Made by a program: the position numbers and the translations under genes | Shown: positions 10,702-30,092 of the stretch, in pieces | Layout: each line of letters begins with the position of its first letter | Position numbering within the stretch: the first letter of the stretch is position 1 | NCBI RefSeq assembly: GCF_900182545.1 | Contig: NZ_FXTJ01000015.1 | Location: 1 to 64,000 of the forward strand | DNA length: 64,000 nt | Direction of reading: 5' to 3' | Source of the DNA: Geodermatophilus aquaeductus | GTDB lineage: Bacteria; Actinomycetota; Actinomycetes; Mycobacteriales; Geodermatophilaceae | Notes under the pieces: generated by a model | What the model was told of the DNA's origin: nothing | What the model saw: only the letters and a program-made list of their open reading frames with translations | Database searches by the model: none

Positions 10702-12408
10702 ATGCCGGCCGGTGCCCCCTCGCCCTCCCCCACCGTCCACGGGATCGACCTCGGCACCACCTACAGCTGCCTGGCGCAGGTCAACGACGACGGCACCGCC
10801 CGCGTCGTCCCGCTCCTCGACGGCGCGCCCACGCTGCCCAGCGTTGTGCTCTTCGTCGGCCCCGACGACTACGTCACCGGCGAGCGCGCCCGCGTCCTGG
10901 CCCGCGCCCAGCCCGACGACGTCTGCACGCTGGTCAAGCGGCGCATGGGCGACAGCACCTGGCGCTTCGTCAGCCACGGCCGGTCCTGGTCGGCGCCCGC
11001 GGTGAGCAGCCTGGTCCTCAGCGCGCTGGTCAGCGAGACCAGCTTCTCCACCGACGGACCGGTGCGCGACGTCGTCATCACCGTGCCGGCCTACTTCGGC
11101 GACGAGGAGCGGCGGGCCACCCGGCTGGCCGGCGAGTACGCCGGCCTGACCGTCCTCGACGTCATCAACGAGCCGACCGCGGCCGCGCTGTCCTACGGCT
11201 TCGCCCGCCTCGACGGCGGCGGCCCCTCGGACCACCTCGAGGAGGTCGCGCTCGTCTACGACCTCGGCGGCGGCACCGTCGACGTCGCGGTCGTGGAGCT
11301 CGCCGACCGGCGGCTGGCCGTCGTCGCCACCGATGGCGACCACGAGCTCGGCGGCGCCGACTGGGACGAGAAGCTCGCCGTCCACCTCTCCCGCGCCTTC
11401 CTCGCCGCCCACCCCGACGCCGAGGACCCCCTCGACGACAGCGCCGGCGGCCAGGCCCTCGTGCTCGCCGCCGAGCGGGCCAAGCGCGAGCTCAGCGTCC
11501 GCGACGCCGTCGTCGTGCCGGTCGAGCACGACGGCCGCCGGGTCGACGTGCCGGTGACCCGGGCGGAGTTCGAGCAGCTCACCGCGGGCCTGCTCGACCG
11601 CACGATGGCGCTGACCCGCGCGGCGGTCGCCGCGGCCCGCGCCCGCGGCGTCGACCGCATCGACCGGGTGCTGCTGGTCGGCGGCTCGACCCGGATGCCC
11701 GCCGTCGCGCAGCGGCTGACCGCCCAGCTGGGCGTGCGCGCCGAGGTGCACGACCCCGACCTCGCCGTCGCCAAGGGCGCCGCGGTGTACGGCCGCAAGA
11801 AGCAGCTGGAGCGCCTGCTCGTCGCCGACCTGGTCACCCGCGGGCAGCTGCGCGCCGGGACGCCGCTGGAGTACGCCGCCCCCGCCGACGTCGACGCCGC
11901 CTGCGCCCGCCTCGGCGACGCCTTCGGGCTCTCGGCCGCGCAGGTGCGGCGGACCGTGGAGATCCAGGTCCTCAACACCGTCTCCCGCGGCTTCGGCGTC
12001 CTGGCGCTCGACCGGTTCGGCGAGCCGGCCACCGTCTTCCTCGTGCACCGCAACGACCGCCTGCCCGTGGCCGTGCGCCGCTCCTTCGGCACCGTGCACG
12101 ACGACCAGCGGCGGGTCACCATCCGCGTCGTCGAGCAGGGCGGCGGGACGGAGTCCACCCGGCCCGAGGACGCCAAGCTGCTCGCCGAGGCCTCCATCGA
12201 GGACATCCCGCCCGGCCACCCCGCCGGCACCGAGATCCAGGTCGTGCTGCGCATGGGCTTCGACGGCATCCTCGAACTCACCGCGCTGCACGAGGGGCTC
12301 GCCGACCGCCCGCTCACCGTGCGCGTCGAGACCGGCGCGGCGCTCAGCCAGGCCGACGTCGCCCGCGAGCGCGCACAGGTCGGCCGCATCCGCCGCCGGC
12401 GGGACTGA
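10702..12408 (+). CDS. Hsp70-family chaperone (DnaK-like, divergent)
   Basis: The 568-residue protein has a complete actin-fold ATPase: phosphate-1 motif GIDLGTTYSC (from residue 14), phosphate-2 DLGGGTVDVAV (near 188) and adenosine motif LVGGSTRMPAV (near 325), with INEPTAAALSYG between. A short substrate-binding-like region follows (about 400-550) with FDGILELTA. It is shorter than DnaK (about 610-640) and lacks the C-terminal lid tail. There is no grpE or dnaJ beside it, so it is not the housekeeping DnaK. The next gene starts four bases after its stop, so the two are an operon. It is divergent from a TerA-like gene, placing it in the Ter stress island. Client and regulation are unknown. 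Confidence 0.93.
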   Translation: MPAGAPSPSPTVHGIDLGTTYSCLAQVNDDGTARVVPLLDGAPTLPSVVLFVGPDDYVTGERARVLARAQPDDVCTLVKRRMGDSTWRFVSHGRSWSAPAVSSLVLSALVSETSFSTDGPVRDVVITVPAYFGDEERRATRLAGEYAGLTVLDVINEPTAAALSYGFARLDGGGPSDHLEEVALVYDLGGGTVDVAVVELADRRLAVVATDGDHELGGADWDEKLAVHLSRAFLAAHPDAEDPLDDSAGGQALVLAAERAKRELSVRDAVVVPVEHDGRRVDVPVTRAEFEQLTAGLLDRTMALTRAAVAAARARGVDRIDRVLLVGGSTRMPAVAQRLTAQLGVRAEVHDPDLAVAKGAAVYGRKKQLERLLVADLVTRGQLRAGTPLEYAAPADVDAACARLGDAFGLSAAQVRRTVEIQVLNTVSRGFGVLALDRFGEPATVFLVHRNDRLPVAVRRSFGTVHDDQRRVTIRVVEQGGGTESTRPEDAKLLAEASIEDIPPGHPAGTEIQVVLRMGFDGILELTALHEGLADRPLTVRVETGAALSQADVARERAQVGRIRRRRD

Positions 12409-12412
12409 GCGC

Positions 12413-16381: not shown

Positions 16382-17353
16382 TCAGTGCTGCTGCTGGGCG
16401 CGGGCGACCAGCCGCTGGCCCAGGCTGCCTGCCTGGGCGTTGGTGAGCAGCTGTGTCTGCGACTCCACCAGCCGCAGCACCGCCGGGTCCTCGCGGGCCA
16501 CCTCAGAGGACTGCAGCAGGATCGTCCCCTTGCCGGTGAAGTCGTACTGCCGCTCCTCGCCCGAGGCCCGACCCAGCGCCCCGGAGAGGGCGCCGAGCAT
16601 GCTCTGCGTCATCCACTGCGCGTCGTGGTGCACCGACGGCGAGGGGCAGTCGGCCCAGCCGAGCAGCGCGTCGGGGTCGGCCCGGAACGGCGGCTCCACG
16701 AAGATCACCGGCCCGTTGGACGAGGCGATGAACTTGCCCGTGCCGATGAGCGTGACGAACCCGGGCACGATCGACTGCTTGAGCTCCAGCGCCGGGGAGA
16801 ACGCGCAGAGGTTGCTCGCCTTGATCGTCAGGTTGCCGTCGTCGAGGTCGTAGGCGTTGAGGTCGAACCCGCGGTCGCCGATGAGCACCTTGCCGTGGCC
16901 CTGGGCGACCACCCAGTCCTGCACGTAGATCGGGCTGGAGAACTTGGCGCCCACCCACGCCTGCACCGACGAGTACTCGGTGACGGCGTCGAACTGGACG
17001 TTGCCGTAGTACGCCAGCATCGCGCCCTTGCTCATGAACCACTCGCCGTTGAGCGTGATGCAGAAGACGTAGGGGTTGACGTTGTCGTCGTCGGGCAGCG
17101 ACTGCACGTTGAGCGTCGTCGGCACGCCGGCCGGCGGGCCCGAGGGCTGCGGCGGGCCGCCGTACGGCGGCTGCGGCTGACCGCCGTAGGGCGGCTGGCC
17201 GTAGCCGGGCTGGGGCTGGCCGTAGCCGGGCTGGGGCTGGCCGTAGCCGGGCTGGGGCTGGCCGTAGCCGGGCTGGGGCTGGCCGTAGCCGGGCTGGGGC
17301 TGACCCCCGTAGGGGTTGCCGCCGCCGTAGGGGTTGTTCGGCGGGTAGGTCAT
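16382..17353 (-). CDS. AIM24-family protein with Gly/Pro/Tyr/Gln repeat N-terminus
   Basis: The 323-residue protein has a disordered N-terminal ~75 residues made of NPYGG and five exact QPQPGYG repeats. An AIM24/TIGR00266-type beta-rich domain follows (about residues 85-290), with GEWFMSKGAMLAYYGNVQF near its start. It is the third gene of a leftward AIM24 trio and starts 11 bases after the preceding stop, at ATG 17353. AIM24 was named for a yeast mitochondrial-organisation gene; bacterial members are uncharacterised but often sit beside TerD genes. The low-complexity N-terminus resembles that of the TerA-like protein at 9670, suggesting a shared localisation or phase-forming property (inference). 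Confidence 0.88.
   Translation of the reverse strand: MTYPPNNPYGGGNPYGGQPQPGYGQPQPGYGQPQPGYGQPQPGYGQPQPGYGQPPYGGQPQPPYGGPPQPSGPPAGVPTTLNVQSLPDDDNVNPYVFCITLNGEWFMSKGAMLAYYGNVQFDAVTEYSSVQAWVGAKFSSPIYVQDWVVAQGHGKVLIGDRGFDLNAYDLDDGNLTIKASNLCAFSPALELKQSIVPGFVTLIGTGKFIASSNGPVIFVEPPFRADPDALLGWADCPSPSVHHDAQWMTQSMLGALSGALGRASGEERQYDFTGKGTILLQSSEVAREDPAVLRLVESQTQLLTNAQAGSLGQRLVARAQQQH
17198..17302 (-). repeat. five perfect 21-bp tandem repeats inside the AIM24 gene
   Basis: Five identical 21-base units run head to tail and keep the reading frame, each encoding one QPQPGYG heptad. Identity at the third codon positions indicates recent expansion, so copy number is likely to vary between strains. Confidence 0.92.
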
Positions 17354-17364
17354 CGTCGCCGTCC

Positions 17365-18009
17365 TCAGAACTTCTGCTCGCTGGCCTGCACGTACACCGT
17401 GCCGGAGCCGCTGATCTTCAACTGGAAGGCCTCGCCGGAACCCCGGCCGACCACGTCGCGGAAGCCGACCTTCGCCGCCAGGTCGACCGAGAGCTGGCCG
17501 ACGTGCCCGACGTAGGCCTGCGGGTCGACGCCGACCTGCGTGCCGTTGAGCTGCAGCGGGAAGGCGCCGCCGTGCGACAGCAGCGCCACCGAGCCGCGGC
17601 CGTGCACGTTGGTGGTGAACAGCCCCTGCCCGGTCATGGCGCCGGAGATCGCCGACTTCACGCCGCCGGAGCCGAGGAACTGCACGCTGGTCTGCAGGTT
17701 CGCGTCGTGGGCCAGGAGCCGGTCGGCCTCGCACACCAGCGGGGCGTTGCCGTCGAGCTCCAGGACGGTGACGTGCAGGCCCTTGTAGCCGTAGAGCACC
17801 TGGCCGGTGCCCTCGGTGGCCATCATCGGGTTGGACTCGCCCGACATCGCGGCACCGAGCATCCCGCCGACGCCACGGCCCTGGCCGTGCACCGGGCGGA
17901 AGGTGACCTGGCCGGAGTAGCCGAGCATCGCCCCGCGGCGGGCCAGCACGGGGCTGGCCGGGCCGACGTGCGCGCGCACGACCTTGCTGTTGACCGTCTC
18001 GAACGACAA
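17365..18009 (-). CDS. AIM24-family protein (214 aa)
   Basis: This is the middle gene of the AIM24 trio and consists of a single AIM24 domain: an N-terminal strand set ending LARRGAMLGYSGQVTF, a Gly/Met-rich loop (residues 45-65), then repeated beta segments ending SGEAFQLKISGSGTVYVQ. The TTG start at 18009 lies three bases after the stop of the previous gene, so expression depends on translational coupling. No signal peptide or membrane helix is seen. It is similar in layout to the gene at 18013, suggesting tandem duplication followed by divergence. Its biochemical role is unknown. Confidence 0.85.
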   Translation of the reverse strand: MSFETVNSKVVRAHVGPASPVLARRGAMLGYSGQVTFRPVHGQGRGVGGMLGAAMSGESNPMMATEGTGQVLYGYKGLHVTVLELDGNAPLVCEADRLLAHDANLQTSVQFLGSGGVKSAISGAMTGQGLFTTNVHGRGSVALLSHGGAFPLQLNGTQVGVDPQAYVGHVGQLSVDLAAKVGFRDVVGRGSGEAFQLKISGSGTVYVQASEQKF

Positions 18010-18012
18010 CGC

Positions 18013-18630
18013 TCAGCGCTCCGAGGACTGAACGAGCACCAGGCCGTGCCCGGTGAAACGGAGGGAGAAGGGCTCGCCGGAGCCCTCGCCCACGAGGGAC
18101 TTCCAGGAGACGCCGCTGACCAGGTTCATCGACAGCTGGCCGCGGGACCCGACGTAGGCGTCGGGGTCGACGACGAGGTCCTGGCCGGGCGCGACCTCGA
18201 GGGCCATCACCGGCCCGTCGGACACGATGGCCACCTGGCCCTGGCCGGTCACGGTCGTGGTGGCGAGCCCCTGGCCACTGGTCATGCCGCGCAGGCCGGC
18301 GAACTGGACGTCGAGGCGCAGGTGCTCGGTGTGAGCGAGGATGTGCTCGCTCTCCACGGTGAGCGTGTCGCCCCCGAGGTCGACGACGAGGACGTCCATC
18401 GCGTCCTTGGCGAGGTGCACGCGGCCGTGGCCCGTGCAGTCCATGAGGGAGATGCTCTCGCCGGCGACGGCCCGCTTGAGCGCGGCGCGCATGCCGCCGC
18501 CCCCGCCCATCCCGGAGTTCTTGAAGTCGACGTTGCCCTCGTAGGCGACCATCGAGCCGCTGGCGGCCCGGATGCGGTCCCCGTGCAGGTCGGCGTGCAG
18601 GACGCGTTTCTGGGCGGTGAGTTGTGCCAC
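18013..18630 (-). CDS. AIM24-family protein, first of the trio
   Basis: The 205-residue AIM24 domain protein contains GSMVAYEGNVDFKNSG, a Gly/Met-rich loop, then repeated beta segments including TGQGQVAIVSDGPV and ending RFTGHGLVLVQ. The start is placed at GTG 18630 because CGAGAGG lies just upstream and the N-terminus VAQLTAQKRVL aligns with the paralogue; an ATG 93 bases further up gives a basic, unrelated extension. A TACGGT -10 element at 18666-18671 would give a leader of about 29 bases. It heads the three-gene AIM24 operon. Whether it binds lipid or forms oligomers cannot be read from the sequence. Confidence 0.85.
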   Translation of the reverse strand: MAQLTAQKRVLHADLHGDRIRAASGSMVAYEGNVDFKNSGMGGGGGMRAALKRAVAGESISLMDCTGHGRVHLAKDAMDVLVVDLGGDTLTVESEHILAHTEHLRLDVQFAGLRGMTSGQGLATTTVTGQGQVAIVSDGPVMALEVAPGQDLVVDPDAYVGSRGQLSMNLVSGVSWKSLVGEGSGEPFSLRFTGHGLVLVQSSER

Positions 18631-18665
18631 GGATGCCTCTCGGTGCAGGGGACGGGACCGGGCGG

Positions 18666-18772: not shown

Positions 18773-19885
18773 TCAGCGCTGGCCGGCGGTGACCTCGTCG
18801 CGCTCGGCCTCGACGGGCTCCGGCTCGTGCGTCCGGTCGCGCCGGGTGGCGAGGACGCTGCTGATCACCGCGGCGACGATGAAGAGCAGACCGGTGAGGC
18901 CGGTGACGTACTCACTGATGTGGAACCGCAGCTCCAGGATCATGATCGCGGCCAGGAAGCCGATCGCCCACATCGCGCCGTGCTCGAGGTAGCGGTACTC
19001 GTCGAGCGTGCCCTTGTCGACCATGTAGATGGTCAGCGACCGCACCCAGAAGGCGCCGATGCCCAGGCCCAGCGCGATGACGAAGATGTCGCTGCTGATG
19101 GCGAACGCGCCGATGACGCCGTCGAAGGAGAACGACGCGTCGAGCACCTCGAGGTAGAGGAACGCCGCCGCGCCGGCGCCGGCCACGGCCTTGGTCGCCG
19201 TCCCCACGCCGTCGCGCGAGGTCGACTCGCCGGTGGCGGTGACGTCGTCGTCGTCGGTCTCCGGGGCCTCCATGAGCTCGTTGAGGCCGCCGATGAGCAG
19301 GTAGGTGAACAGGCCGGCGAGGCCGGAGACCAGGACGGTGGCGTACTTGTCGTCGTCGGCGATCTGCGAGCCGAGGTAGATGACCGCCAGCGCGATGACG
19401 ATCGCGAGGTAGGGCAGCTTGCCGGCCTTGGCCAGCGGCTTCTCCAGCCAGGACAGCCAGTGGATGTCGCGGTCCTCGTCGAAGAGGAAGTTCAGGAAGA
19501 TCATCAGCAGGAAGATCCCGCCGAAGGTGTAGATGGCCTCGGCGGCGTCCTCGACGGCCGAGCCGTAGGCCTCCTGGTCGCTGAGCGCGAGGTTCCACAC
19601 CTCGGGGATCGACAGCGAGGCGGTGACCGAGACCAGCACGATCGGCAGCAGCAGCCGCATGCCGAAGACGGCGATGAAGATGCCGACGTAGAGGAACAGC
19701 TTCCGCCAGAGCGGGCTCATCCGGCGCAGCACCTTGGCGTTGACCACGGCGTTGTCGAACGAGAGACAGACCTCGAGCACGCCGAGGACGGCGACGGCCA
19801 GCAGGGCGGCCGGTCCGCCGAAGAACACGGCGGTGACGAGCGCGGCCACCGTCAGACCGACGGAGAAGCCGAAGTAGCGGAGCAT
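18773..19885 (-). CDS. DUF475 / TerC-related integral membrane protein
   Basis: The 370-residue protein has about nine to ten hydrophobic segments. The charged TerC-superfamily signatures are LEVCLSFDNAVVNAKVLRRM (near residues 37-56) and LEVLDASFSFDGVIGAFA (near residue 245). The paired Asp/Asn residues within membrane helices are the feature shared with TerC and suggest metal-ion transport or binding. Loops are acidic (DDDDVTATGES). ATG 19885 is the start, with AAAGGAAACCCTG upstream. It stands alone between two terminator/promoter regions and is divergent from a coiled-coil gene. The leader contains an ECF-type promoter candidate, consistent with stress control. The transported ion is unknown. 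Confidence 0.9.
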   Translation of the reverse strand: MLRYFGFSVGLTVAALVTAVFFGGPAALLAVAVLGVLEVCLSFDNAVVNAKVLRRMSPLWRKLFLYVGIFIAVFGMRLLLPIVLVSVTASLSIPEVWNLALSDQEAYGSAVEDAAEAIYTFGGIFLLMIFLNFLFDEDRDIHWLSWLEKPLAKAGKLPYLAIVIALAVIYLGSQIADDDKYATVLVSGLAGLFTYLLIGGLNELMEAPETDDDDVTATGESTSRDGVGTATKAVAGAGAAAFLYLEVLDASFSFDGVIGAFAISSDIFVIALGLGIGAFWVRSLTIYMVDKGTLDEYRYLEHGAMWAIGFLAAIMILELRFHISEYVTGLTGLLFIVAAVISSVLATRRDRTHEPEPVEAERDEVTAGQR

Positions 19886-20012: not shown

Positions 20013-20171
20013 CCCCCCGGGCGGGCGACGGGCGGTGCGGGGTCAGCGGACCGGGCGGCCCCGGCCGCCCGTTCCCACGGGAGCGGTGCCGGCGTGGTAT
20101 CCACAGGCCGCCGGGCCACGGAGGCGCCGGCCCGCCCCGCCGGACGCGGGCCACCGCGACGGGAGGCGACC

Positions 20172-21464
20172 GTGAGCGGACCGGTCGGCACCCCGTGGTG
20201 GCGCCGCGACCGCGACGCGCCCCGGCGGGAGGCCAGCGCGGCACGCGAGGCCGCGGCCGCGGCGATGCTGGAGCTGGACACCGCCCTGGCCGACCTGCCG
20301 GACGCGGTGGCCGCGGCCGAGGAGGCCGGGGGCGGCACGGGCGAGCGGGGACACGGGCGGGCAGGCGCGAGAGGGCTTCAGCACCGCATCTCCGCCCCCG
20401 ACTCGTTGACCCGCGACTGGCGCGACCTCTCGACCCACGCCGACGCGGTCATTGGACACTATCTGCAGGCGCTTTCCAACCACGACGCGGCCGCCGACGC
20501 CGACCCCGGCCGGGCTCGGACGGCGGCCACGGAGCTGGGCGCCGCCGCCACCGCGCTGCGCGAGGTCCACGCCCAGGTGGTGCGCTTCCGCGAGCAGTAC
20601 GGCGAGGTGCTGGCGACCGCCGCGCGGGCCCGGGCCACGGCCGCCCGCTCGGTGTCCGCCGCGCGGGAGACGACCGCCGCGGCCCGCGCCGCGCTCGACG
20701 CCGCGGGCGCCGCCGGGCTGGCCGACCCCGGGCTCGACGCCGCGCTGACCGACGCCGACCGCCTCGCCGCGGCCGCCGCCGCCGAGCTGGCCGCCCGCCG
20801 GGCCGGGCCCGCGCTGGACGCCGCCGAGCGGGGCCGGCACGCCGCGGAGGCCGCCGCCGAACGGGCGCGGGCGCTGCCGGAGCGGGCCGCGGAGGTGCGC
20901 CGGGGCGCGGCCTCGGTGCGCACCCGCCGGGAGGCGCTGGGCACCCGCCACGAGCGGCTGACGCCGGTGATGAGCGAGCTGCGCCGCCGCTATCCGCTGT
21001 CGGCGTGGGCCGACGTCGAACGCGCGCCGCAGCGGGCGGCCGAGGCGCTGGCGGAGGCCGACGAGGCGCTCAGCGCGCTGCAGGCGGCCCTCGACGCACC
21101 GGTGCTCGACGTCCCCGCGGCCGCGGCGCACCTGGCCCGGGTGCGGGCGGCGGCCGGGCGGGTCGACGAGGAGGTGCGGTCGGCGACCGGCCGGCTCGAG
21201 CGGCTCGACGCCGTCGCCGCGGACCCCGGGTCGCTGCTCACCGAGGTGCAGCGCGCCGTCGTCGACGCCCGGCGGTTCCTGGCCGGGCTGCCCGAGGACC
21301 GCGCGCGCCGCTTCCGCCGCACGTTCGAGGACCTCGCCCGGCGGCTGCCCCCGCTGGAGGACGCCGCGCGGGGCCGCCGTCCCGACTGGGGCGCGGTGCT
21401 GCGCGAGGCGCAGGCGATCGAGGACGCGCTCGACCGCCTGGTGCGGACCGCGCGGGCCGACTAG
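20172..21464 (+). CDS. Ala-rich coiled-coil protein, function unknown
   Basis: The 430-residue protein is almost entirely predicted helix, with long Ala/Arg/Glu heptad-like stretches from about residue 90 to 430 and no recognisable catalytic motif or signal peptide. I do not recognise the family; composition resembles the coiled-coil tails of PspA- or TelA-like stress proteins, but no signature supports either. GTG 20172 is chosen because GGGAGG lies seven bases upstream and the residues before it look like leader. It is divergent from DUF475 and convergent with the HAD gene, sharing a CTAG stop overlap of four bases. Position inside the Ter island suggests a stress role by context only. Confidence 0.75.
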   Translation: MSGPVGTPWWRRDRDAPRREASAAREAAAAAMLELDTALADLPDAVAAAEEAGGGTGERGHGRAGARGLQHRISAPDSLTRDWRDLSTHADAVIGHYLQALSNHDAAADADPGRARTAATELGAAATALREVHAQVVRFREQYGEVLATAARARATAARSVSAARETTAAARAALDAAGAAGLADPGLDAALTDADRLAAAAAAELAARRAGPALDAAERGRHAAEAAAERARALPERAAEVRRGAASVRTRREALGTRHERLTPVMSELRRRYPLSAWADVERAPQRAAEALAEADEALSALQAALDAPVLDVPAAAAHLARVRAAAGRVDEEVRSATGRLERLDAVAADPGSLLTEVQRAVVDARRFLAGLPEDRARRFRRTFEDLARRLPPLEDAARGRRPDWGAVLREAQAIEDALDRLVRTARAD

Positions 21465-22270
21465 CCGACCCGGTCGAGCAGCCAGCGCACGATCTCCTCC
21501 CCGGCGGCCGCGCCGCTCGCGGCGGTGACCGCGACGCGCGCGCCGGTCCAGCCCTGCTCGTGCAGCTCGCCGTGCGCGGGGCGGACGGCGGCGTCGGCGG
21601 CCAGCAGCATCGGGGCGTCGAGCAGGCTGTCGCCGGCGCACAGCAGCCGCGGCGCCGGCCCCTCCCCCGCGAGCAGCCGGCGCAGCCGCAGCAGCCCCGC
21701 GGCCTTCGACAGCCCGGCGGGCACGACGTAGACCTTGCGGCCCTGCACCGACAGCATGGCCCCGGCGGCGGTGACCGCGGCGCCGGTGTCGGCGAGCCAG
21801 CCGGCCGGGATCGCCTCCCGCGCGTGCGCGACGAGGTAGCAGAACAGGCCCTCGGCGGCGCGGACGGTGCGCACCCACGGCTCGCCCGCCACGGCCTCGA
21901 GCAGCGCGAGCAGCTCCGGCAACGGGGCGGCCTGCGCCGCGGTGGCCGCGGCCCAGTCGTCCCAGTCGGGGTCGCGGACGCCGTCGGCGAGCAGGACGCC
22001 GCCGTTGGCGCACAGCGCGTACCGCGGGACGACGGGCAGCCGGACCCGCTCGTACTGCGCCACGGTGCGGGTGGTCACCGGCACGAGCAGCGCCCGCTCC
22101 GCCAGGTCGGCCAGCAGCCGCCACGACGCCGGGGTGGCGTGCGACAGCGGGGCGCCGTCGAGGTGCTCGACGACCTGCAGGCCCTCGGCGCCGCCGGCCG
22201 CGGCGGCGGAGTAGATGAGCGTGCGGTCCAGGTCGACGGCGGCCAGGGCCGAGGTGAGGACGGCGGTCAC
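21461..22270 (-). CDS. HAD-superfamily phosphatase of the Ter biosynthetic module
   Basis: The 269-residue HAD-IIB-like hydrolase has motif I VDLDRTLIYS (residues 12-21), a Lys in GLSKAAG and motif IV GDSLLDAPML near residue 215. Such Cof-type phosphatases dephosphorylate small metabolites. It is the last gene of the terD operon; the GTG start overlaps the preceding stop as GTGA. In Ter systems a HAD phosphatase is a recurring part of a predicted pathway that makes a nucleoside-like metabolite (Anantharaman, Iyer and Aravind's analysis of Ter systems). Its substrate has not been shown and cannot be read here. Confidence 0.9.
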   Translation of the reverse strand: MTAVLTSALAAVDLDRTLIYSAAAAGGAEGLQVVEHLDGAPLSHATPASWRLLADLAERALLVPVTTRTVAQYERVRLPVVPRYALCANGGVLLADGVRDPDWDDWAAATAAQAAPLPELLALLEAVAGEPWVRTVRAAEGLFCYLVAHAREAIPAGWLADTGAAVTAAGAMLSVQGRKVYVVPAGLSKAAGLLRLRRLLAGEGPAPRLLCAGDSLLDAPMLLAADAAVRPAHGELHEQGWTGARVAVTAASGAAAGEEIVRWLLDRVG

Positions 22271-23394
22271 CTGCCCACCGGCCGGATCAGCCCCACGCAG
22301 GAGTACGGCAGGTCGGGAACCTCGACCAGCGGGACGCCGCGGGCCCGGGCCAGCGCGGCGACGTGGCGGAGGTCCTCGGCGCGGTCGGGCCGCACCAGCA
22401 CCTGCCACGGCACCCGGCGCAGCAGCACCCGCGTGGTCTCCCCCACCCCGGGCTTGACCAGGTTGACGTCGGCGATGCCGAACTCCGCGGCGATCGCCTC
22501 GACCGCCGCCCAGCCCTCCCACGTCGGACGCCGCTCGCCGGCCGGGACGTCGTCAACGGGTCGGGCCGCGGGGAACGCGGCGGCGACGGTGTCGACGAAC
22601 AGCGCGGAGACGTCGGCGTCGGCGAGCTCGGCGTAGTACTTCGCGCCGTGGAACATGCCGGGGCCGATGAGGTCCTCGCGCAGGACCGTCCGCGACACCA
22701 GCCCCGACACCGTGCTGTTGAGGCAGGCGCTGGGGATGAGGAAGTCGTCGCGGGTGCCGTACAGGTCGGTGCACACGCCGGGGTCGGCGAGGACGGCGAG
22801 CCGGTCGTCGAGGGCGGCGTCCTCGGGGTGCGCGGCGGTCCAGGCGCCGACGGCCTCGGTCAGCTGGCGCTGGATGGCGCCCTTGCCGGTCCACCCGTCG
22901 ACGAAGCGCAGCGCGGCGGCCGGGTGCCGGGCCAGCACGTGCGCCAGCGCCACCTCGTCGATGCCGCGGCCGCGGATGATCGAGACGGTGTAGTGCGGCA
23001 CGGCCACGCCGCGCGAGGCGAGGAACCAGCGCCGCAGCAGCACGCCGATCGGCGTCCCGGCGCGGGCGAGCGACACCAGCACCGGCGTCTGCCCGTGCGC
23101 GGCCGCGGCGTCCCACACCAGCTCGCCGACCCGGGCGACGGCGTCGGCGAGCCGGCCTGCGGACTGCGCCAGCGCGGCGGTGAACAGCGCCAGGTAGTCG
23201 TCGTCGGGCTGGTACTCGACCGGCAGCATCTCCGAGTAGTGGGTGCCCGACTGGATGGCCTCCTCGCGGTCCTCGGTGCCGCGCTCCAGCGCGACCGACG
23301 ACAGGTCGGTGAGCAGCCAGGTCACCTCCTCCGGCGCATACGAGCCGAACCGGCCGGGGACGGCGGGCGCGAGCCGGGCGGACAGCGCGGTCAC
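22267..23394 (-). CDS. StiP/PRTase-like protein with C-terminal PELOTA domain
   Basis: The 375-residue protein matches the StiP-type proteins of Ter operons. The N-terminal ~280 residues contain SGTHYSEMLPVEY, LVSLARAGTPIGVLLRRW, HYTVSIIRGRGID and FVDGWTGKGAI, the last resembling a phosphoribosyltransferase ribose-phosphate loop. LIPSACLNSTVSGLVSRT carries a conserved Cys. The final ~75 residues (DVNLVKPGVGETTRVLLRR onward) form a PELOTA-like RNA-binding module. Databases variously label the first domain cysteine protease or PRTase; activity is unproven. The GTG start and stop both overlap neighbours as GTGA, so it is tightly coupled with the PRTase-TRSP and HAD genes. Confidence 0.9.
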   Translation of the reverse strand: MTALSARLAPAVPGRFGSYAPEEVTWLLTDLSSVALERGTEDREEAIQSGTHYSEMLPVEYQPDDDYLALFTAALAQSAGRLADAVARVGELVWDAAAAHGQTPVLVSLARAGTPIGVLLRRWFLASRGVAVPHYTVSIIRGRGIDEVALAHVLARHPAAALRFVDGWTGKGAIQRQLTEAVGAWTAAHPEDAALDDRLAVLADPGVCTDLYGTRDDFLIPSACLNSTVSGLVSRTVLREDLIGPGMFHGAKYYAELADADVSALFVDTVAAAFPAARPVDDVPAGERRPTWEGWAAVEAIAAEFGIADVNLVKPGVGETTRVLLRRVPWQVLVRPDRAEDLRHVAALARARGVPLVEVPDLPYSCVGLIRPVGR

Positions 23395-24665
23395 GGGGCC
23401 GGCTCCGCGAGCGGCACGGTCACCAGGTGCACGGCGCGGGCGGCGAAGGGCCGCAGCGCCTCGGCCATCGGCGCGGCGTCGGCGGCCGACGCGTCCACCA
23501 CCACGACGACGTCGTCGGCGCGCCGGTCGGACCACGGGCCCGCGGCGGGCACGGCGGCCGGGTCGGCGAGGTTGTGCACGCGGGAGACCCGGGCGGGGTC
23601 GTCGGGTGCGGGGAAGGCCAGGCTGCGGCGCAGGGCGTAGCCGGGGTCGTCGGCGGCGTGCACGGGGCTCCGGGTGGTCGACTGGGTGGTGACGGGGACG
23701 CCGGGCAGCCGCCCGGCCAGCCGCGCACCCACGAGGGTGGGCGCGTGCATGAGCTCCTCGGTACCGAGGACGAGGACGCCACGGCTGCCGGCCAGCGCCG
23801 GCGCGAGGGCCGCGGCGACGGCGTCGGCGGCCTCGGCGAGGCGGGCGCTGCCGGCCGGGGTCAGGCCGTGCCGGGCGGTGGAGGGGACGCCGGCGGGCCA
23901 CAGCCCCTCGTGCACGGCCACGGACCCCGGCGCGCCCGACGGCGGCGGCGCCGCGGCGGGGAGGGCGGCGCGGGCGGCGGCAGCCCGGTCGAGGACGTCG
24001 GCCGGCAGCGTCAGCTCGGTGGCGAGGACGGCGGCGACGTCGACCCGCACGCCCAGGGCCGCCGCCCGCTCGGCGAACGCCGCCCGGGCGGCCGGGGTGC
24101 GCGCGTCGAGCAGCGTGGCGATGACGTAGCGCTCGCGCGGCCAGCGGACCTGCAGCTCGGCCACGGTGTTGAGCGCGGTGCGGCCGCTGGTGAGCTCGTC
24201 GTCGACCAGCACCAGCGGCCCGGGCACGTCGAGGGTCACCGCCCCGGTGGGCTGCAGCGCGTGCGCGACGGCGTGCGAGTGCTCCTCCTCGAACGCCGCG
24301 GCCACCGGCACGCCGGGGTGCACGCGCCGGGTGGTGTGCAGGTAGGCGGCGCCGAGCCGGTCGGCGGCGGCGTGGCCGAGGCCGGTCGCCGTCTCGCAGT
24401 AGCCGATGACCAGGCCGGGCCGCTCGTCCCCGAGGACCGCGGCGACGGCGTCGCCGACCGCCGCCCCGGCAGCGAGGACGGTGTCCGGCGCGGCCGGCAC
24501 GTGCTTGCCGAGCACGCGCGAGACGACGAGGTGGGCGCGGCGGGGGTTGTCCCGCAGCCCCAGTCCGCACAGCCGCGCGAACCGGTCGCGCGCGGCGACG
24601 TCGATCCCGAGCAGGCCGGAGACGGTGCCGCCCAGCCAGGCGGCACCGGGGAGGGTGGCGGTCAC
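23391..24665 (-). CDS. phosphoribosyltransferase with TRSP domain (Ter operon)
   Basis: The 424-residue protein has an orotate-PRTase-like N-terminal domain with the PRPP-binding loop LVLVDDELTSGRTALN near residues 165-180. The C-terminal domain contains the TTRSPVHA motif after which the TRSP domain is named, plus TARHGLTPAG and VLVLGTEELMHAP. The family occurs with TerD operons and is predicted to attach ribose-5-phosphate to a base-like acceptor. The GTG start overlaps the lyase stop and its own stop overlaps the StiP start, both as GTGA. The acceptor is unknown. Confidence 0.92.
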   Translation of the reverse strand: MTATLPGAAWLGGTVSGLLGIDVAARDRFARLCGLGLRDNPRRAHLVVSRVLGKHVPAAPDTVLAAGAAVGDAVAAVLGDERPGLVIGYCETATGLGHAAADRLGAAYLHTTRRVHPGVPVAAAFEEEHSHAVAHALQPTGAVTLDVPGPLVLVDDELTSGRTALNTVAELQVRWPRERYVIATLLDARTPAARAAFAERAAALGVRVDVAAVLATELTLPADVLDRAAAARAALPAAAPPPSGAPGSVAVHEGLWPAGVPSTARHGLTPAGSARLAEAADAVAAALAPALAGSRGVLVLGTEELMHAPTLVGARLAGRLPGVPVTTQSTTRSPVHAADDPGYALRRSLAFPAPDDPARVSRVHNLADPAAVPAAGPWSDRRADDVVVVVDASAADAAPMAEALRPFAARAVHLVTVPLAEPAP

Positions 24666-25864
24666 GCGCGCTGCGCCTCCCCGCCGGCGAAGACCTCGGC
24701 CAGCCGGCGCTGCCCGGTGGAGAGCAGGTCGACCAGCGCGGCCTCGTCGGCGACGACGCCGTAGACGGCGGCGCGGCGGCTGATCAGCTCCGCCCACAGC
24801 GCGTGCGGCCCGATCTCGTTCATCCGGCCGTTCGTCGACACCGCGATCCCGCCCCGGCCACGGGCCATGAGGATCTCGAGGGCGTCGTCGTATTCCGAGC
24901 GGGAGACGGTGAGCAGCGCGTTGACCACCGAGACGTGCGCCGGGTGGATGACGGTCTTGCCCAGCACGCCGTTGGCCTTGTCCAGCGTCACCTCGCGGAT
25001 GAGCCCGTCGAGGTCGCCGGCGATCATCCGCTGCCGCAACCCGCCCTCGTGCTGGTCGCTGAACGGCGTCGAGCGCAGCTGCGGCTTGAACAGCCGGGGG
25101 CCGGGGATGTGCTCCCACACCGCACCGGTGACCACCTGGTCGCCACCGCGGGTGAACCGGTTGACCACGTCGGCCAGGCAGTCCCGCACGACGGCGACGT
25201 CCCAGATGGTGGTGTCGCGGTCGCGCCGCAGGCCGAACAGCCCCGACAGGTCGGTGCCGCCCACTCGCAGGCACAGCACCGACTCCCGGTGGGCGTCGAC
25301 CACCGCGGCGAGGGCGGCGAGCGCGTCGGCGCGGGTCTCCCGCCAGGCGAGCTCGGCGGTCTCCAGGATCGGCATGCCGTACAGCGGCTGCCCGGTCGCC
25401 GAGCCCACCTCGGCGATGGCCTCGAGCATGGGCGCGAGCGTGGCGCCGGTGGCCTTGGGCAGGCTGAAGCCGGTGAGCCAGGCCAGCGCCGGCCCGGCGG
25501 CCAGCGCGATCGAGCGGATCTGCTCGGCCGAGCGCACCCGCACGAACAGCAGCGGCAGCGCCGGCTGCTCACCGGCGGCCGCCCGCGCGGAGATGCGCCG
25601 CAGTGCCGCGACGACGTTGGCCTCCGCGTCGGGGACCGCCGCGTGCGGGATGGCGTCCTCGAGGCACCAGACCACGCTGGTCGTCCCCACCGTGGCCGCG
25701 CGCGCGGCGTCGGCGTCCAGCGCCGGGCGGGTGGCGGGGCTGTACAGCGTCGCGCCGAGGGCGAGGGCGAGCATGCCGCGCGGCGTCGCCGGACCGACGT
25801 CGCCCGGCGGCACGGCGAACAGCCGCTCGCGCTCGTCGTCGGTGAGGTACGAGAAGTGGCGCAC
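24662..25864 (-). CDS. HpcH/CitE-like C-C bond lyase (Ter operon)
   Basis: The 400-residue TIM-barrel protein belongs to the aldolase/citrate-lyase-like group associated with Ter operons. Recognisable segments are VVWCLEDAIPH (about residues 67-77), FVRVRS, GFSLPKATG, ILETAEL and NGVLGKTVIHP. The Glu/Asp in CLEDA and ETAEL are the expected metal ligands. It should make or break a C-C bond in a small acid. GTG 25864 has GGAGGGAACGACC upstream and lies 23 bases after the vWA gene, so it is the first enzyme of the biosynthetic half of the operon. Substrate unknown. Confidence 0.9.
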   Translation of the reverse strand: MRHFSYLTDDERERLFAVPPGDVGPATPRGMLALALGATLYSPATRPALDADAARAATVGTTSVVWCLEDAIPHAAVPDAEANVVAALRRISARAAAGEQPALPLLFVRVRSAEQIRSIALAAGPALAWLTGFSLPKATGATLAPMLEAIAEVGSATGQPLYGMPILETAELAWRETRADALAALAAVVDAHRESVLCLRVGGTDLSGLFGLRRDRDTTIWDVAVVRDCLADVVNRFTRGGDQVVTGAVWEHIPGPRLFKPQLRSTPFSDQHEGGLRQRMIAGDLDGLIREVTLDKANGVLGKTVIHPAHVSVVNALLTVSRSEYDDALEILMARGRGGIAVSTNGRMNEIGPHALWAELISRRAAVYGVVADEAALVDLLSTGQRRLAEVFAGGEAQRA

Positions 25865-25887
25865 GGTCGTTCCCTCCTGCTGGGGAC

Positions 25888-27243
25888 TCACCGGACGAGC
25901 AGGCCCTGGGCGCGCGCCCGCCGGAGCCAGTCGGGGTACTCGGTCATGAGCCGGTCGAACAGCGCGTCGTCGCTGATCGGCCGGGAGCCCATGAGGTCGT
26001 CCTGGGAGACGGCGAAGAAGTCGGCGTTGTCGGTGTAGCGGCCGTCGAGGTCGTCGAGCCGCTGCAGGTAGCTGAACTGCCGCTCCGGGCCGATGCCCAT
26101 GAACTGCCAGAACACCGGCTCGAACGACGCCGACTTGATCTGCTTCGTCGCCACCGACTTGTCGCTGGGGGCGCCGTCGGTCAGGAACATGACGTAGACC
26201 GGGACCTGCGCCGGCTGGGGCTCGACCCGCTCGCGGCTGTCGCCGAAGTACGCCTGCCGGACGGCGGCCATCGCCGCGCCGTAGCGGGTGTCGTACTCCA
26301 GCGGGTACTGCCGCGACAGGTCGGCGATGTACTGCTGGTGGCCCTCCAGGCGCAGCCCCGGCTCGGGGCGGTGCACGTCCTTGCCGAAGAGGAACACGTC
26401 GACGACGCCGTCGTCGTCGAAGCGCAGGCCCAGCGCCAGGACCCGCTCGGCCAGCCGCTGCACGGCGCCGGCGCGGTAGAGCGCGGCCATCGACCCGGAG
26501 ATGTCGAGGACCAGCGCGACGCGGGCGGTGTGCTCGCCCAGGCCGCGCTTCTCCAGGCTGACGCCGGCAGTCTTGACCAGGCTGAGCATCTGCGGCGCCG
26601 ACGTCGCGAGCTTCTTCTCCAGGTCGACGATGCGGCGCTTCTCCATGCTCACCGGCGCGGCGGCGGGCTGGGCCTGGGGTGCGGGCTGCGCCGCGGGCGC
26701 CGGCTCGTCGTCGACGCGCACGCCGACGTCGGTGGCCATGCCGGCCAGGCCGTTGGTGAAGCCCTGCCCGACGGCGCGCACCTTCCACTCCGCGCCGCGG
26801 CGGTAGACCTCGGCGAAGACCAGCGCGGTCTCGGCGCCGGCGGCGAGCTCGCAGCGGATGGCCGCGGCACCGCCGTCGGGACCCACCTCGACGGCGAGCC
26901 CGGACAGCGCGCCGAAGGTGCCCGCGCCGTCGAGGGAGGCGCCGATGACGACCTTCTCGACGTCGGCGGGCAGCGCGGCGGGGTCGATGCGGACCTGGTC
27001 GACGGTCGCGCCGCCGCGGGCGGTCTTGCCGAGGTGGCGGACCGCGCCGCCGGCGCCGCTGGGCTGGTTGTAGAAGACGAAGTCGGCGTCGCTGCGGACC
27101 TTCCCCGCGGCGGTGGTGAGGAACGCCGAGAGGTCGGCGTCGACGCCGGGAGCCGGCGTCCAGGTGAGCGTGACGACGACGGGGCCGGTCAGGCCGGCCT
27201 GGGCGAGGCCGACGTTGCCGCCCCGGGTGAGGACGTGGACCAC
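25888..27243 (-). CDS. TerD-domain protein fused to a von Willebrand A domain (TerF-like)
   Basis: The 451-residue protein has a TerD-like domain (about residues 1-180; [47 protein letters not shown]). An Ala/Pro/Gln linker follows (185-205), then a vWA domain (about 240-440) with MIDAS motif LDISGSM, the Thr-containing DTRYG and [12 protein letters not shown] domains bind a divalent metal and mediate protein contacts; with TerD this gives a metal-dependent scaffold at the membrane or in a chaperone complex (family knowledge). It lies 34 bases after the TerA-like gene and 23 before the lyase gene, linking the structural and enzymatic halves of the operon. Confidence 0.93.
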
Positions 27244-27277
27244 TGCGCGGCCGTTCAGGCGGGGGTCGCGGCGGCGG

Positions 27278-27922
27278 TCACTTGCGCCCGCTCGTCCAGT
27301 TGAGGCCCCAGCCGTAGGCGCCGTCGAGGTCGCGCTGGACGCCGGGCAGGTAGCGGATCTCGCGCTGCACGGTCAGCGAGCCGCCGGAGTTGGTCAGCAG
27401 CGCGATGGCGCAGGAGCGGGCGCCCTGGGCGTGCTCGTCGAGACGGACCTCGATCGGCGCGGCACCCTGCGGGTACAGCGTGACGACGCCGTTGGCCGCG
27501 GCCCAGTTCGGCGCACCCTCGTAGATGTAGGCGAACACGAGCACCCGGCGGATCCGGTCGAGGTGGTCGAGGTTGACGAGCAGGTTCTCCCCGCCGGACT
27601 TGGCGCCGGAGCGGTCGTCGCCGTCGAGGAGCACGTAGGGCGGGCGGTCGAGCGCGCCGAAGGCGTTGCCCAGCGCCTGCACGACGCCCTTGCTGCCGTC
27701 GGCGGTCTCCCACAGGCAGCCGAGGTCGAGGTCGACGGCCGAGCCCTTGGAGAACAGGCCGCGGCGGCCGGACTCCCAGTTGAGGTTCACCCGCATCTGC
27801 CCGCCGGCGCCGCGGCCCTTGGTGAGCGAGACCGACGGCGCGCTCTTGGTGAGCGTCACCTTGCTCATGCTGACGCCGCCGCCGGACGGCGGCGGGGAAC
27901 TCGGGCGGGTGTAGTCGACCAT
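27278..27922 (-). CDS. TerA/TerD-superfamily protein (short paralogue)
   Basis: The 214-residue protein begins MVDYTRP with a short Ser/Pro/Gly segment, then a TerD-like domain starting [15 protein letters not shown] and containing [35 protein letters not shown] and a final WTSGRK. It is the shorter paralogue of the 311-residue protein at 9670, sharing the N-terminal tag and C-terminal GRK but lacking the long Pro-rich arm. ATG 27922 is the start. It lies 82 bases after terD and 34 bases before the TerD-vWA gene in the same leftward operon. TerA-like proteins are thought to assemble with TerD and TerC; no enzymatic residue is evident. Confidence 0.9.
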
Positions 27923-28004
27923 GACGGGACCTCCGGCTTCGGGGCTGGTGCGGGCAGGGTGCCGGGCCCGGACGCGGGTGCGCGTCCGGGCCCGGCGGCG
28001 GTGG

Positions 28005-28586
28005 TCAGCCGACGTTGACGCCGAAGTCCTGGGCGATGCCGCGCAGGCCGGAGGCGTAGCCCTGGCCGACGGCGCGGAACTTCCAGTCCGCGCCGTTGCG
28101 GTAGAGCTCGCCGAAGACCATGGCGGTCTCGACCGAGGCGTCCTCGGTGAGGTCGTAGCGGGCGACCTCCTGGCCGTTGGCCTGGTTGACGATGCGGATG
28201 AAGGCGTTGCGCACCGCGCCGAAGTTCTGCTTGCGGTTGTCGGCGTCGTAGATCGACACCGGGAACACGATCTTCTCGACCGTCGGCGGGACACCCGCCA
28301 GGTTCACCTGGACGACCTCGTCGTCACCCTCGCCCTCACCGGTGAGGTTGTCACCGACGTGGACCACGGAGCCGTCGGGGCTGCGCAGGTTGTTGAAGAA
28401 GATGAAGCCCGAGTCGTCGGGGGTGACCCTGCCGTCGGCACCGATCATGATCGCCGACGCGTCGAGGTCGAACTCGCCGCCGGAGAACGTGTTCACGTCC
28501 CAGCCGAGGCCGACGTTCACCGCGGTCAGGCCCGGCGCCTCCTTGGTCAGCGAGACGTTCCCGCCCTTGGAGAGGCTGACACCCAT
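28005..28586 (-). CDS. terD: TerD, calcium-binding stress protein
   Basis: The 193-residue protein is a canonical TerD/TerZ-type protein. It starts [20 protein letters not shown] and has the Ca2+-site segments FDLDASAIM and [11 protein letters not shown], then GEGEGDDE, and ends [16 protein letters not shown] and the short helix that closes the family. ATG 28586 is preferred over ATG 28601 because GGGAG lies nine bases upstream and the family N-terminus begins there. It heads the operon running down to 21461. TerD proteins confer tolerance to tellurite, colicins and oxidative stress; the molecular mechanism is not settled. Confidence 0.96.
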
Positions 28587-28703
28587 CAGTTGGACTCCCA
28601 TGTCACTGTCGGGGGCGCAGCGGCGGTCGCCGCTGTGCTGGACACCGGACGTGGCCGGCGCCGCCGGGGGACGGCGCGGGCGCGGGCGCCCAGCGCGGTT
28701 CCC

Positions 28704-28837: not shown

Positions 28838-29953
28838 TCACCGGGAGCCGCCGTCGGGCCGCTCGGCCGGCCTCGCCGCAGGGGTGCCGTGCTCCGGCCG
28901 GGACCCGGGGAGCGGCTCGGCGACCGGCTCGGCGGCCGACCCGACGACCGGCACGCCGGCGTCCCCGGCCGCGGCCGCCTCGCGGGCGTCGCGCCGGCTG
29001 CGGGCCAGGCTCGCCACCGTGGTGACCAGCAGGGTGAGGACGATGACCGACAGCGACAGCCAGGTCGGGATCTCCGGGACCACCGTGACGTGCTCGCCGC
29101 CGTTGATGAACGGCAGCTCGTTCTCGTGCAGCGCGTGGATCAGCAGCTTGACCCCGATGAAGCCGAGGATGACCGCCAGGCCGTAGTGCAGGTAGACCAG
29201 CCGGTCGAGCAGGCCGTCGATGAGGAAGAACAGCTGCCGCAGGCCCAGCAGGGAGAAGGCGTTGGCGGCGAAGACGAGGAACGTCTCCTCGGTCAGCCCG
29301 AAGATGGCCGGGATCGAGTCGACGGCGAAGAGGAGGTCGGCGCTGCCGATGGCGACCAGCGCGATGGCCAGCGGGGTGATGTAGCGCTTGCCGGCGAGCT
29401 TCGTCGTCATCCGGTCGCCGTGGTACTCGTCGGTCGTCGGGATGATCCGGCGGGTCAGCCGGAGGAAAGCGTTCTCGGTGAACTCCTCGTCCTCGCCGCC
29501 GCCGGCACGGGCCTGCGCGATCGCGGTGTAGATGAGGAACGCGCCGAACAGGTAGAAGACCCAGCTGAAGTTCTCGATCGCCGCGGCGCCGAGGAAGATG
29601 AAGACGGTGCGCAGGATCAGCGCGAAGGCGATGCCGAACAGCAGCACCTTCTGCTGCAGCTCCCGCGGCACCGCGAAGCTGGCCATGATCAGCACGAAGA
29701 CGAAGAGGTTGTCGACCGACAGGCTCTTCTCGGTGATGTAGCCGGCGAAGTACTCCCCGCCGTACTGGCCGCCGGCGAAGAGCCAGACGCCGATGCCGAA
29801 GAGGACGGCGATGGCGACGTAGACCGCCGACCAGGTCGCCGCCTCGCGCAGCGTCGGGGCGTGCGGCGTGCGCACGTGGCCGACGAAGTCGAACACGATC
29901 ATGGCCATGATGGCGGCGACGGTGATCGCCCAGACCCAGATGGGGACGTCCAT
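28838..29953 (-). CDS. terC: TerC-family membrane protein
   Basis: The 371-residue protein has eight or nine membrane helices. TerC signatures are EKSLSVDNLFVFVLIMASF (near residues 75-93) and LVAIGSADLLFAVDSIPAIF (near 200-219), with Asp/Asn residues inside the helices as in the TerC/Alx/MntP-like metal exporters. The C-terminal ~50 residues are Pro/Ala/Glu-rich and cytoplasmic. ATG 29953 has GGAGG at a normal distance. TerC relatives export Mn2+ and support metalation of secreted or membrane proteins (family knowledge). Here a yybP-ykoY riboswitch lies directly upstream, which fits that role. It precedes the terD operon but is separated by 251 bases. Confidence 0.96.
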   Translation of the reverse strand: MDVPIWVWAITVAAIMAMIVFDFVGHVRTPHAPTLREAATWSAVYVAIAVLFGIGVWLFAGGQYGGEYFAGYITEKSLSVDNLFVFVLIMASFAVPRELQQKVLLFGIAFALILRTVFIFLGAAAIENFSWVFYLFGAFLIYTAIAQARAGGGEDEEFTENAFLRLTRRIIPTTDEYHGDRMTTKLAGKRYITPLAIALVAIGSADLLFAVDSIPAIFGLTEETFLVFAANAFSLLGLRQLFFLIDGLLDRLVYLHYGLAVILGFIGVKLLIHALHENELPFINGGEHVTVVPEIPTWLSLSVIVLTLLVTTVASLARSRRDAREAAAAGDAGVPVVGSAAEPVAEPLPGSRPEHGTPAARPAERPDGGSR

Positions 29954-29959
29954 GCGGAT

Positions 29960-30092
29960 ACCTCCGGTCGACTGGCAGCTGTCAGCACCGGAGGTCTCTC
30001 CCACCGGCGACTGCAGCGACCGGCCGATGACGCCGGGGTGTCTCCACCCGTGTTGACGACGTCACCGCGAGCGGGATACTCCCCTCCACGGT
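29960..30092 (-). promoter_or_regulatory. yybP-ykoY (Mn2+-sensing) riboswitch controlling terC
   Basis: Read on the minus strand from about 30091, the leader contains GGAGGGGAGTATCCC, then GACGTCGTCAACACGG, GGCGTCATCGG and GGGAGAGACCTCCGG. These are the conserved elements of the yybP-ykoY RNA in order, with GGAGG at the 5' end and CCTCC at the 3' end forming P1. The same CCTCC (29990-29994) can instead pair within ACCTCCGGT/ACCGGAGGT (29987-29995 with 29960-29968), which buries the terC Shine-Dalgarno GGAGG. That predicts translational ON-switching when metal stabilises P1. Aptamer about 29986-30092; expression platform 29960-29995. Confidence 0.88.

Follow-up and report, generated by a model that had tools for sequence, protein, structure and literature searches.

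A stretch of 64,000 nucleotides (nt) from the actinomycete Geodermatophilus aquaeductus (contig NZ_FXTJ01000015.1, positions 1 to 64,000; the window) carries a Ter locus of seven leftward genes, running from 28586 to 21461 and all on the minus strand, in which terD, a TerA-like gene and a TerD-vWA fusion precede four enzyme genes. The four enzyme genes make up a module that recurs in relatives together with TerD and that probably encodes a pathway dependent on phosphoribosyl pyrophosphate (PRPP). The genes and the one RNA feature among them, with product lengths in amino acids (aa) and E values of the Pfam matches, are as follows.

28005 to 28586, minus strand: terD, 193 aa; PF02342, 3e-82 (frame 28005-28652 searched)
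27961 to 27996, minus strand: 16-bp RNA hairpin directly 3' of terD, terminator- or processing-like, without a T run
27278 to 27922, minus strand: TerA-like gene, 214 aa; no TerD domain match and no Pfam match
25888 to 27243, minus strand: TerD-vWA fusion, 451 aa; PF02342, 6e-39, and vWA-TerF-like PF10138, 1.9e-55
24662 to 25864, minus strand: CitE/HpcH-type C-C bond lyase, 400 aa, GTG start; C-C_Bond_Lyase PF15617, 3.9e-104
23391 to 24665, minus strand: PRTase_2-TRSP protein, 424 aa; PRTase_2 PF15609, 3.9e-58, and TRSP PF12500, 2.4e-28
22267 to 23394, minus strand: StiP-PELOTA protein, 375 aa; StiP PF11202, 1.1e-101, and PELOTA_1 PF15608, 3.6e-35
21461 to 22270, minus strand: HAD-IIB phosphatase, 269 aa; family of PDB entries 6d3v and 6cj0

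Coordinates and Pfam matches, the latter covering five of the seven proteins (all but the TerA-like and HAD proteins), agree with the original prediction of seven genes with named domains on the minus strand at this place, and the TRSP, PRTase_2, PELOTA_1 and C-C_Bond_Lyase models proposed there as a check all match. The GTGA overlaps said to couple the four enzyme genes are exact at three junctions (24662-24665, 23391-23394 and 22267-22270). The description of the locus as one leftward operon fits the shared strand but is overstated with respect to terD, which is set apart from the six other genes by a gap of 82 nt to the TerA-like gene that holds the 16-bp hairpin. The 96-nt stretch around the hairpin folds at -56.5 kcal/mol (z -4.26), and strong hairpins of differing sequence are present at the same place in all four Geodermatophilus-type relatives looked at (L050, L058, L071 and L072), which were folded without shuffles. 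L050 and L072 have the TerA-like gene in this position, and in L058 and L071 it was not found there, making it a variable part of the locus. Its product shares 49% identity with part of an IncHI2 plasmid gene that can be identified as terA by its position between terZ and terB.

Co-occurrence and organization of the four-enzyme module

The distribution of the module was surveyed in 101 genomes of the order, in a sample of 296 genomes of the phylum and in 72,556 plasmid records, with Fisher values computed without correction for kinship and locus-wide BLAST run without a low-complexity filter. Gene order was read in 33 loci of the order (L038-L070; L028, a 3-kb contig, was left out of the counts) and in 80 named loci, the top-ranking ones among at least 594 confirmed relatives and mostly from Streptomyces. 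StiP and PRTase_2 are each present in 35 of the 101 order genomes and the lyase in 38; all three are common to the same 35 genomes, and the three extra lyase genomes have weak matches (E 1e-11 to 1e-15). TerD is present in 36 order genomes, namely the 35 module genomes and one other, G073. The co-occurrence of the three enzyme families is far beyond chance; the Fisher p across the 101 genomes is 2e-26. StiP is present in 14 of the 296 genomes of the phylum sample.

The four enzyme genes share a strand and follow the order lyase, PRTase, StiP, HAD in 31/33 order loci and in 74/80 named loci, and the eight exceptions are six cut contigs, L067, in which the lyase lies on the opposite strand, and L116, in which no lyase was found in 21 kb. 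The TerD genes are less fixed. The 2.5 kb upstream were read for the nearest TerD: order loci with a lyase (n=32) have a divergent one in 12 cases, none in 11 and one on the same strand in 9, and named loci with a lyase (n=74) have a divergent one in 60 cases, none in 4 and one on the same strand in 10. A transcript shared by terD and the enzyme genes, as originally predicted, is not supported as a general rule, given that upstream TerD is mostly divergent or absent in relatives. Since the TerD genes vary in this way, the seven-gene layout is best viewed as a local form and the four-gene enzyme set as the unit.

The phosphoribosyltransferase (PRTase) proteins PRTase_2-TRSP and StiP-PELOTA, which are encoded by separate genes in the window, lie in one open frame with no stop between them in 59 of the 80 named loci (79 of which have the PRTase). 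Same-frame fusion was counted in 17/33 order loci, one of which (L070) is frame-broken, leaving 16 intact. A predicted fused protein (L100) has a mean predicted local distance difference test (pLDDT) score of 91.8 with a low-confidence linker at 428-438, and its predicted template modelling score of 0.65 leaves the domain arrangement uncertain.

Counted family by family rather than per whole module, StiP is present in 2568, the lyase in 2505 and the HAD protein (6d3v query) in 2554 of the plasmid records, mostly from enterobacteria for StiP and the lyase, and such genes are also present in many actinobacteria. An ATP-grasp gene accompanies the module on IncHI2 and Pseudomonas plasmids, in two Bacilli loci (L115 and L122) and on the viral-collection contigs L151 and L152; Paenibacillus modules are among those that have it, and it adjoins the module in six order loci. 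The ATP-grasp gene is therefore an optional part of the modules of relatives. It was not found in the window locus, and calling the operon "complete" was too strong. A search of the G. aquaeductus genome with PF15632 (ATPgrasp_Ter) gave matches on contigs C2 and C3 alone, none of them near the window. Because PF15632 scores above its cut-off in 12/14 control genomes, its matches are unspecific and no marker of a Ter module on their own, and a module ATP-grasp elsewhere in the genome was rejected as a candidate. The C2 match adjoins a gene read as a UDP-sugar epimerase.

Acinetobacter phage vB_AbaM_ME3 (L033) and a Rhizobium plasmid both show a PRTase, StiP and a HAD-like gene, and these sets, together with the plasmid counts, suggest that PRTase_2, StiP and HAD are most likely the shared core. 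For HAD detection in L033 and L037, proteins of these loci themselves were among the queries. A Rhizobium leguminosarum plasmid (L154, 5252-7924) holds what reads by eye as a module remnant broken by transposase-like genes, with StiP reduced to its PELOTA end and followed by the start of a lyase. An unverified 15-kb "Bacteriophage sp." scaffold from human faeces (MT836648, L034) carries PRTase_2, StiP, a lyase on the opposite strand and three TerD genes, and may not be a phage.

Conserved residues and predicted folds of the enzymes

Signature residues are conserved in all four enzymes, invariant or nearly so; some loci are present twice (e.g. L033 and L153 are the same phage), and the residue counts of the alignments are therefore partly non-independent. 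PRTase_2 possesses a canonical PRPP loop, with D156, E157, G161 and T163 in 118/118 sequences and D155 in 117/118, and an E-T-A loop, a T-R pair and an F-x-E-x-H-S-H motif are also kept in nearly all 118. The best 14 fold matches of the fused L100 model are adenine PRTases (APRT), which would concern its PRTase_2 part. Among PDB sequences, the PRTase_2-TRSP profile matched PyrR-type proteins weakly across the PRPP loop, and single PRTase_2-TRSP sequences gave no PDB match. In the model, the strands and helices of TRSP succeed one another as in a PRTase domain, and the TRSP profile aligns with that of PRTase_2 in register at an hhalign probability of 18% (controls 0.2 to 4%), suggesting that TRSP may be a second, duplicated and degenerate PRTase-like domain without a PRPP loop. 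In the lyase, E69, D70, R109, R111, K137, E168, D205, R213, R214 and H307 are present in 111/111 sequences, and its relatives in the PDB are citrate/malyl-CoA lyases.

Pfam and the RefSeq records of plasmids give StiP the name of a cysteine protease, and these database names are what speaks for such an activity. In an alignment of 120 sequences (two short rows dropped; some sequences from the same organism), the top cysteines C208, C224 and C366 are present in 114, 115 and 113, so that no cysteine is invariant, while many other residues are (R111-A-G, H134, D166, W168, G170-K-G, D204, D217 and H249). The AlphaFold2 model of StiP (pLDDT 93) was compared by Foldseek, and 45 of the 50 listed matches, among 1123, are PRTases or PyrR (1ufr counted); the other five are one unnamed protein and four other proteins, and none of the 50 is named a peptidase. 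A cysteine protease was rejected as hardly credible. The predicted structure instead suggests a divergent type I PRTase fold, with PRTase matches at E 5e-4 to 8e-3 and TMt 0.28-0.50. The StiP family formerly bore the name PRTase_1 in Pfam. Its loop, VDGWTGKG, keeps D166, G170, K171 and G172 in 120/120 sequences and departs from the canonical PRPP loop of two acidic residues and TGxT. Distant StiP-like proteins from genomes of another family of the phylum (G226:C104:15245-15748 and G381:C51:25143-25649) match at E about 1e-30 over roughly positions 43-202 of the model only.

The PELOTA part keeps K314, P315, E319, T321, R322, R326 and R327 in all 120 sequences and aligns weakly with ribosomal L7Ae (E 0.049). 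Of the RNA-binding PELOTA module in the original prediction, the domain is upheld by this match and by PELOTA_1 (3.6e-35), and RNA binding itself is possible. StiP-PELOTA could then be a PyrR-like RNA-binding regulator that senses PRPP or the product, rather than a pathway enzyme. Four of the best five listed StiP fold matches are PyrR, and the invariant K-P, E, T-R and R-R residues of PELOTA, its weak resemblance to L7Ae and the altered PRPP loop of StiP speak for such a regulator. However, hypoxanthine PRTases (HPRT) score about equally with PyrR, the fusion to PRTase_2 and the all-or-none occurrence fit an enzyme equally well, and an RNA target is only putative; a regulatory protein of this kind is considered quite unlikely.

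The window HAD protein scores 24 bits against the NCBIfam HAD-IIB model, below the cut-off of 42, and its closest relatives are the HAD-IIB phosphatases that act on trehalose, mannosylglycerate and sucrose phosphates. The HAD profile finds two PDB "trehalose phosphatase" sequences (6d3v and 6cj0) at E 3.2e-55. The motifs DxD, T, K and GDxxxD are conserved, with D13, D15, T66, K189, D214 and D218 in 120/120 sequences; the window protein is 30% identical to 6d3v over 234 positions, and 6d3v keeps all 15 residues that are invariant in the Ter HAD alignment. For the HAD protein of the IncHI2 module, the match to 6d3v and 6cj0 spans almost the entire protein. On this sequence evidence the module HAD is a member of the family represented in the PDB by 6D3V/6CJ0, the Pseudomonas "trehalose 6-phosphate phosphatase", and the link between this solved phosphatase relative and the Ter module is an addition made here. 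A Pseudomonas aeruginosa plasmid (L155) carries a gene with 99.6% identity to the 6d3v sequence; it lies between the PRTase_2-TRSP and StiP-PELOTA genes, which are followed by the lyase, a second HAD gene (11784-12512, annotated HAD-IB) and TerD; an ATP-grasp gene lies upstream, past an insertion element.

For this phosphatase, Mg-dependent hydrolysis of trehalose 6-phosphate was reportedly described by Cross et al. in 2018, the source paper. In PMC6838324, an extrachromosomal P. aeruginosa trehalose 6-phosphate phosphatase (TPP) was treated as such, produced and inhibited, and its Cys85 and Cys231 are named. The only cysteines of the PDB chain are, by our count, 87 and 233, and since these fit with an offset of two, the TPP is taken to be the same protein. 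A literature search joining trehalose phosphatase with Ter terms found no paper, although the link may have been published all the same. The OtsB model PF02358 matches neither the window HAD nor the L155 HAD, and the IncHI2 HAD falls below the cut-offs of PF02358 (16 bits vs 27) and S6PP (20.1 vs 20.3). On its contig C1 the G. aquaeductus genome has separate, adjacent genes of the OtsA and OtsB families, suggesting that trehalose synthesis need not depend on the module HAD and that trehalose need not be its target.

O-ribosylation by a PRTase and a phosphatase is known from BtrL and BtrP of butirosin biosynthesis (ribostamycin). The module product could likewise be an O-ribosylated sugar or cyclitol and not a nucleoside, with PRTase_2 phosphoribosylating a hydroxyl and the HAD protein removing the phosphate. 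The nearest relatives of the HAD protein, the production and inhibition of a module member as TPP (PMC6838324) and the separate OtsA and OtsB genes speak for such a product. The in vitro activity on trehalose 6-phosphate may nevertheless be promiscuity, the fused model is closest in fold to PRTases that act on a base, and the acceptor is only putative; an O-ribosylated product is considered unlikely. The "nucleoside-like" product of the original prediction is in line with a published one but is one option only, as the phosphatase family has been published as TPP, and on the phosphatase evidence a sugar-like acceptor is worth testing beside a nucleoside.

The coiled-coil partner and neighbouring genes

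The genes flanking the seven are as follows.

20094 to 21464, plus strand: convergent coiled-coil gene, 456 aa; stop codon overlaps the stop of the HAD gene
28838 to 30004, minus strand: TerC/Alx family membrane protein, upstream of terD; PF03741, 3.4e-49, and TIGR03718, 9e-115
18773 to 19885, minus strand: DUF475 (TerC superfamily) membrane protein, beyond the HAD gene; PF04332, 5.5e-109
16382 to 18633, minus strand: three tandem AIM24-domain genes, beyond the HAD gene; PF01987, 3.8e-41, 4e-34 and 2.5e-11

No Pfam, PHROGs or PADLOC model matches the coiled-coil protein, and its NCBIfam coil-type matches are far below cut-off; a relationship to EzrA (E 4.5e-6) is not claimed, as other coiled coils match too. 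Relatives at 60 bits or more are present in 60/80 named loci, and their alignment shows conserved motifs; some Streptomyces homologues have, by eye, a hydrophobic N-terminus. By profile, the gene is present in 19/101 order genomes, comprising 18/35 module genomes and G073, and thus in 19/36 TerD genomes and in 0/65 genomes without TerD (Fisher p 5e-11, kinship uncorrected); 17 module genomes have no match at the profile sensitivity used. BLAST finds it in 7/33 order loci. Of the 18 copies in module genomes, 16 lie within 10 kb of module genes and those of G004 and G033 elsewhere, and no homologue was found on plasmids. The coiled-coil gene belongs to the Ter system as a conserved partner. G073 is the sole genome of the 101 with TerD but no match for StiP, PRTase_2 or lyase, and its terD and coiled-coil gene lie about 3 kb apart (G073:C16:178764-183186); the genome is a draft, and loss and a gap are both possible.

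A DUF475 homologue is present near the module in 59/80 named loci, and AIM24 genes are also near the module in L036, L038, L040, L054 and L138. A second full-length terD lies elsewhere in the G. aquaeductus genome (G000:C6:117492-118055). StiP homologues are 91 and 94% identical in Geodermatophilus obscurus and G. amargosae, and no sign of recent transfer was seen in the window in the two features looked at, GC content (0.69-0.82 along the window) and transfer RNA genes, of which there were none. None of eight proteins (0/8) matched an anti-phage defence system catalogued in PADLOC, which was ruled out, and a PHROGs scan matched the TerD and vWA proteins alone.

Taken with the phosphatase family, the coiled-coil partner raises a more specific scheme, in which a two-PRTase RNA-binding complex and a trehalose-6-phosphate-type phosphatase would make an O-ribosylated glycoside-like signal or protectant, with the coiled-coil protein coupling the module to TerD at the membrane; this scheme is rather unlikely.

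The proposed pathway and known systems

The chromosomal Ter module is probably a PRPP-dependent pathway, in which the coupled PRTase proteins, the CitE-like lyase and the HAD protein would yield a ribosylated small molecule and the Ter proteins would act at the membrane. PRTase_2 would place the 5-phosphoribosyl group from PRPP onto an acceptor; StiP, coupled to PRTase_2, would take or hand on the phosphoribosyl compound; the CitE-like lyase would make or break a C-C bond on the acceptor; and the HAD-IIB phosphatase would remove the sugar phosphate to release the ribosylated small molecule. TerD, TerA and the TerD-vWA protein, with TerC and the coiled-coil protein, may have a sensor or effector role at the membrane. 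Degradation would also be in keeping with a lyase and a phosphatase, and Ter systems are tied to stress, so the module might salvage or detoxify damaged nucleotides or phosphorylated sugars without building a metabolite. Two PRTase-type proteins and the ATP-grasp of several modules suggest ATP- and PRPP-driven synthesis, however, and salvage is judged improbable.

Several observations weigh against a PRPP-dependent pathway whose product serves the Ter proteins. With the cut-off set at E 0.001, just 3 of the 1123 StiP fold matches are at least that good, and their TM-scores are modest. Profile comparisons of StiP with PRTase_2 (1.0%) and TRSP (2.9%) were within the control range, and a PDB search with the StiP profile, taken as far as E 1, yielded no PRTase; as sequence profiles gave no link, the assignment of StiP to the PRTases rests on its predicted fold. 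The StiP loop, which lacks a second acidic residue, is read here as a sign that StiP may be a binding protein and not a catalyst. Neither a lyase nor an ATP-grasp was found next to the ME3 or Rhizobium plasmid sets, and the 17-kb stretch from Rhizobium showed no TerD; TerD was found within the locus in 71/80 named and 29/33 order loci, and some of the loci where it was not found are short contigs. A signalling role would rest on gene neighbourhood, and terZ-F of Klebsiella alone made Escherichia coli tellurite-resistant (PMC8115787).

The Klebsiella ter operon has also been linked to envelope stress tolerance (PMC9933665). Given that terZ-F suffices and that this link exists, the role of the enzymes themselves need not be tellurite resistance. 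The originally predicted coupling of four enzymes to TerD is strengthened by the signature residues and by the published prediction, whereas tellurite as a trigger for the enzymes is doubtful, since terZ-F suffices.

No named product of the Ter module was found in the literature covered, although it is widespread on plasmids and in actinobacteria. The solved phosphatase relative, the PRTase-like predicted fold of StiP in place of the protease label, the fusion and the coiled-coil partner are additions that provide concrete routes toward identifying this product, and a HAD family already crystallised as a sugar phosphatase gives the search a foothold.

The locus is a member of a known Ter-linked biosynthetic module and not a new system. 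The association had, as the original prediction stated, been described computationally: Anantharaman, Iyer and Aravind predicted a nucleoside-like metabolite for the Ter module, as relayed in PMC7824862 and PMC8115787. As in their 2012 module, compared here through citing papers and Pfam names, a lyase, PRTase_2-TRSP, StiP-PELOTA and HAD lie together in the window and are linked to TerD-family genes, beside terD and terC. The window differs in that no ATP-grasp was found in its locus, in TerD genes that lie immediately upstream in the same orientation and, as far as these sources show, in its coiled-coil partner and nearby AIM24 genes. In the IncHI2 ter locus (L035) and the P. aeruginosa plasmid locus (L155), the four enzyme families likewise adjoin TerD/TerB/TerC genes but stand in a different order (ATP-grasp, PRTase, HAD, StiP, lyase), and the L035 enzyme genes are divergent from the terZ-to-terD block. 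The Ter cluster of phage ME3, already described in PMC7824862, is alike in vWA, TerD, PRTase_2, HAD and StiP; it differs in that no lyase or ATP-grasp was found and that the TRSP model falls short of E 0.1. PDB 6D3V/6D3W/6CJ0, of the same HAD family as the window protein, were deposited and used as trehalose phosphatase, and the text available makes no mention of a Ter context. StiP shares its predicted fold with the type I PRTases PyrR, HPRT and APRT but is unlike them in its altered PRPP loop and its fused L7Ae-type domain.

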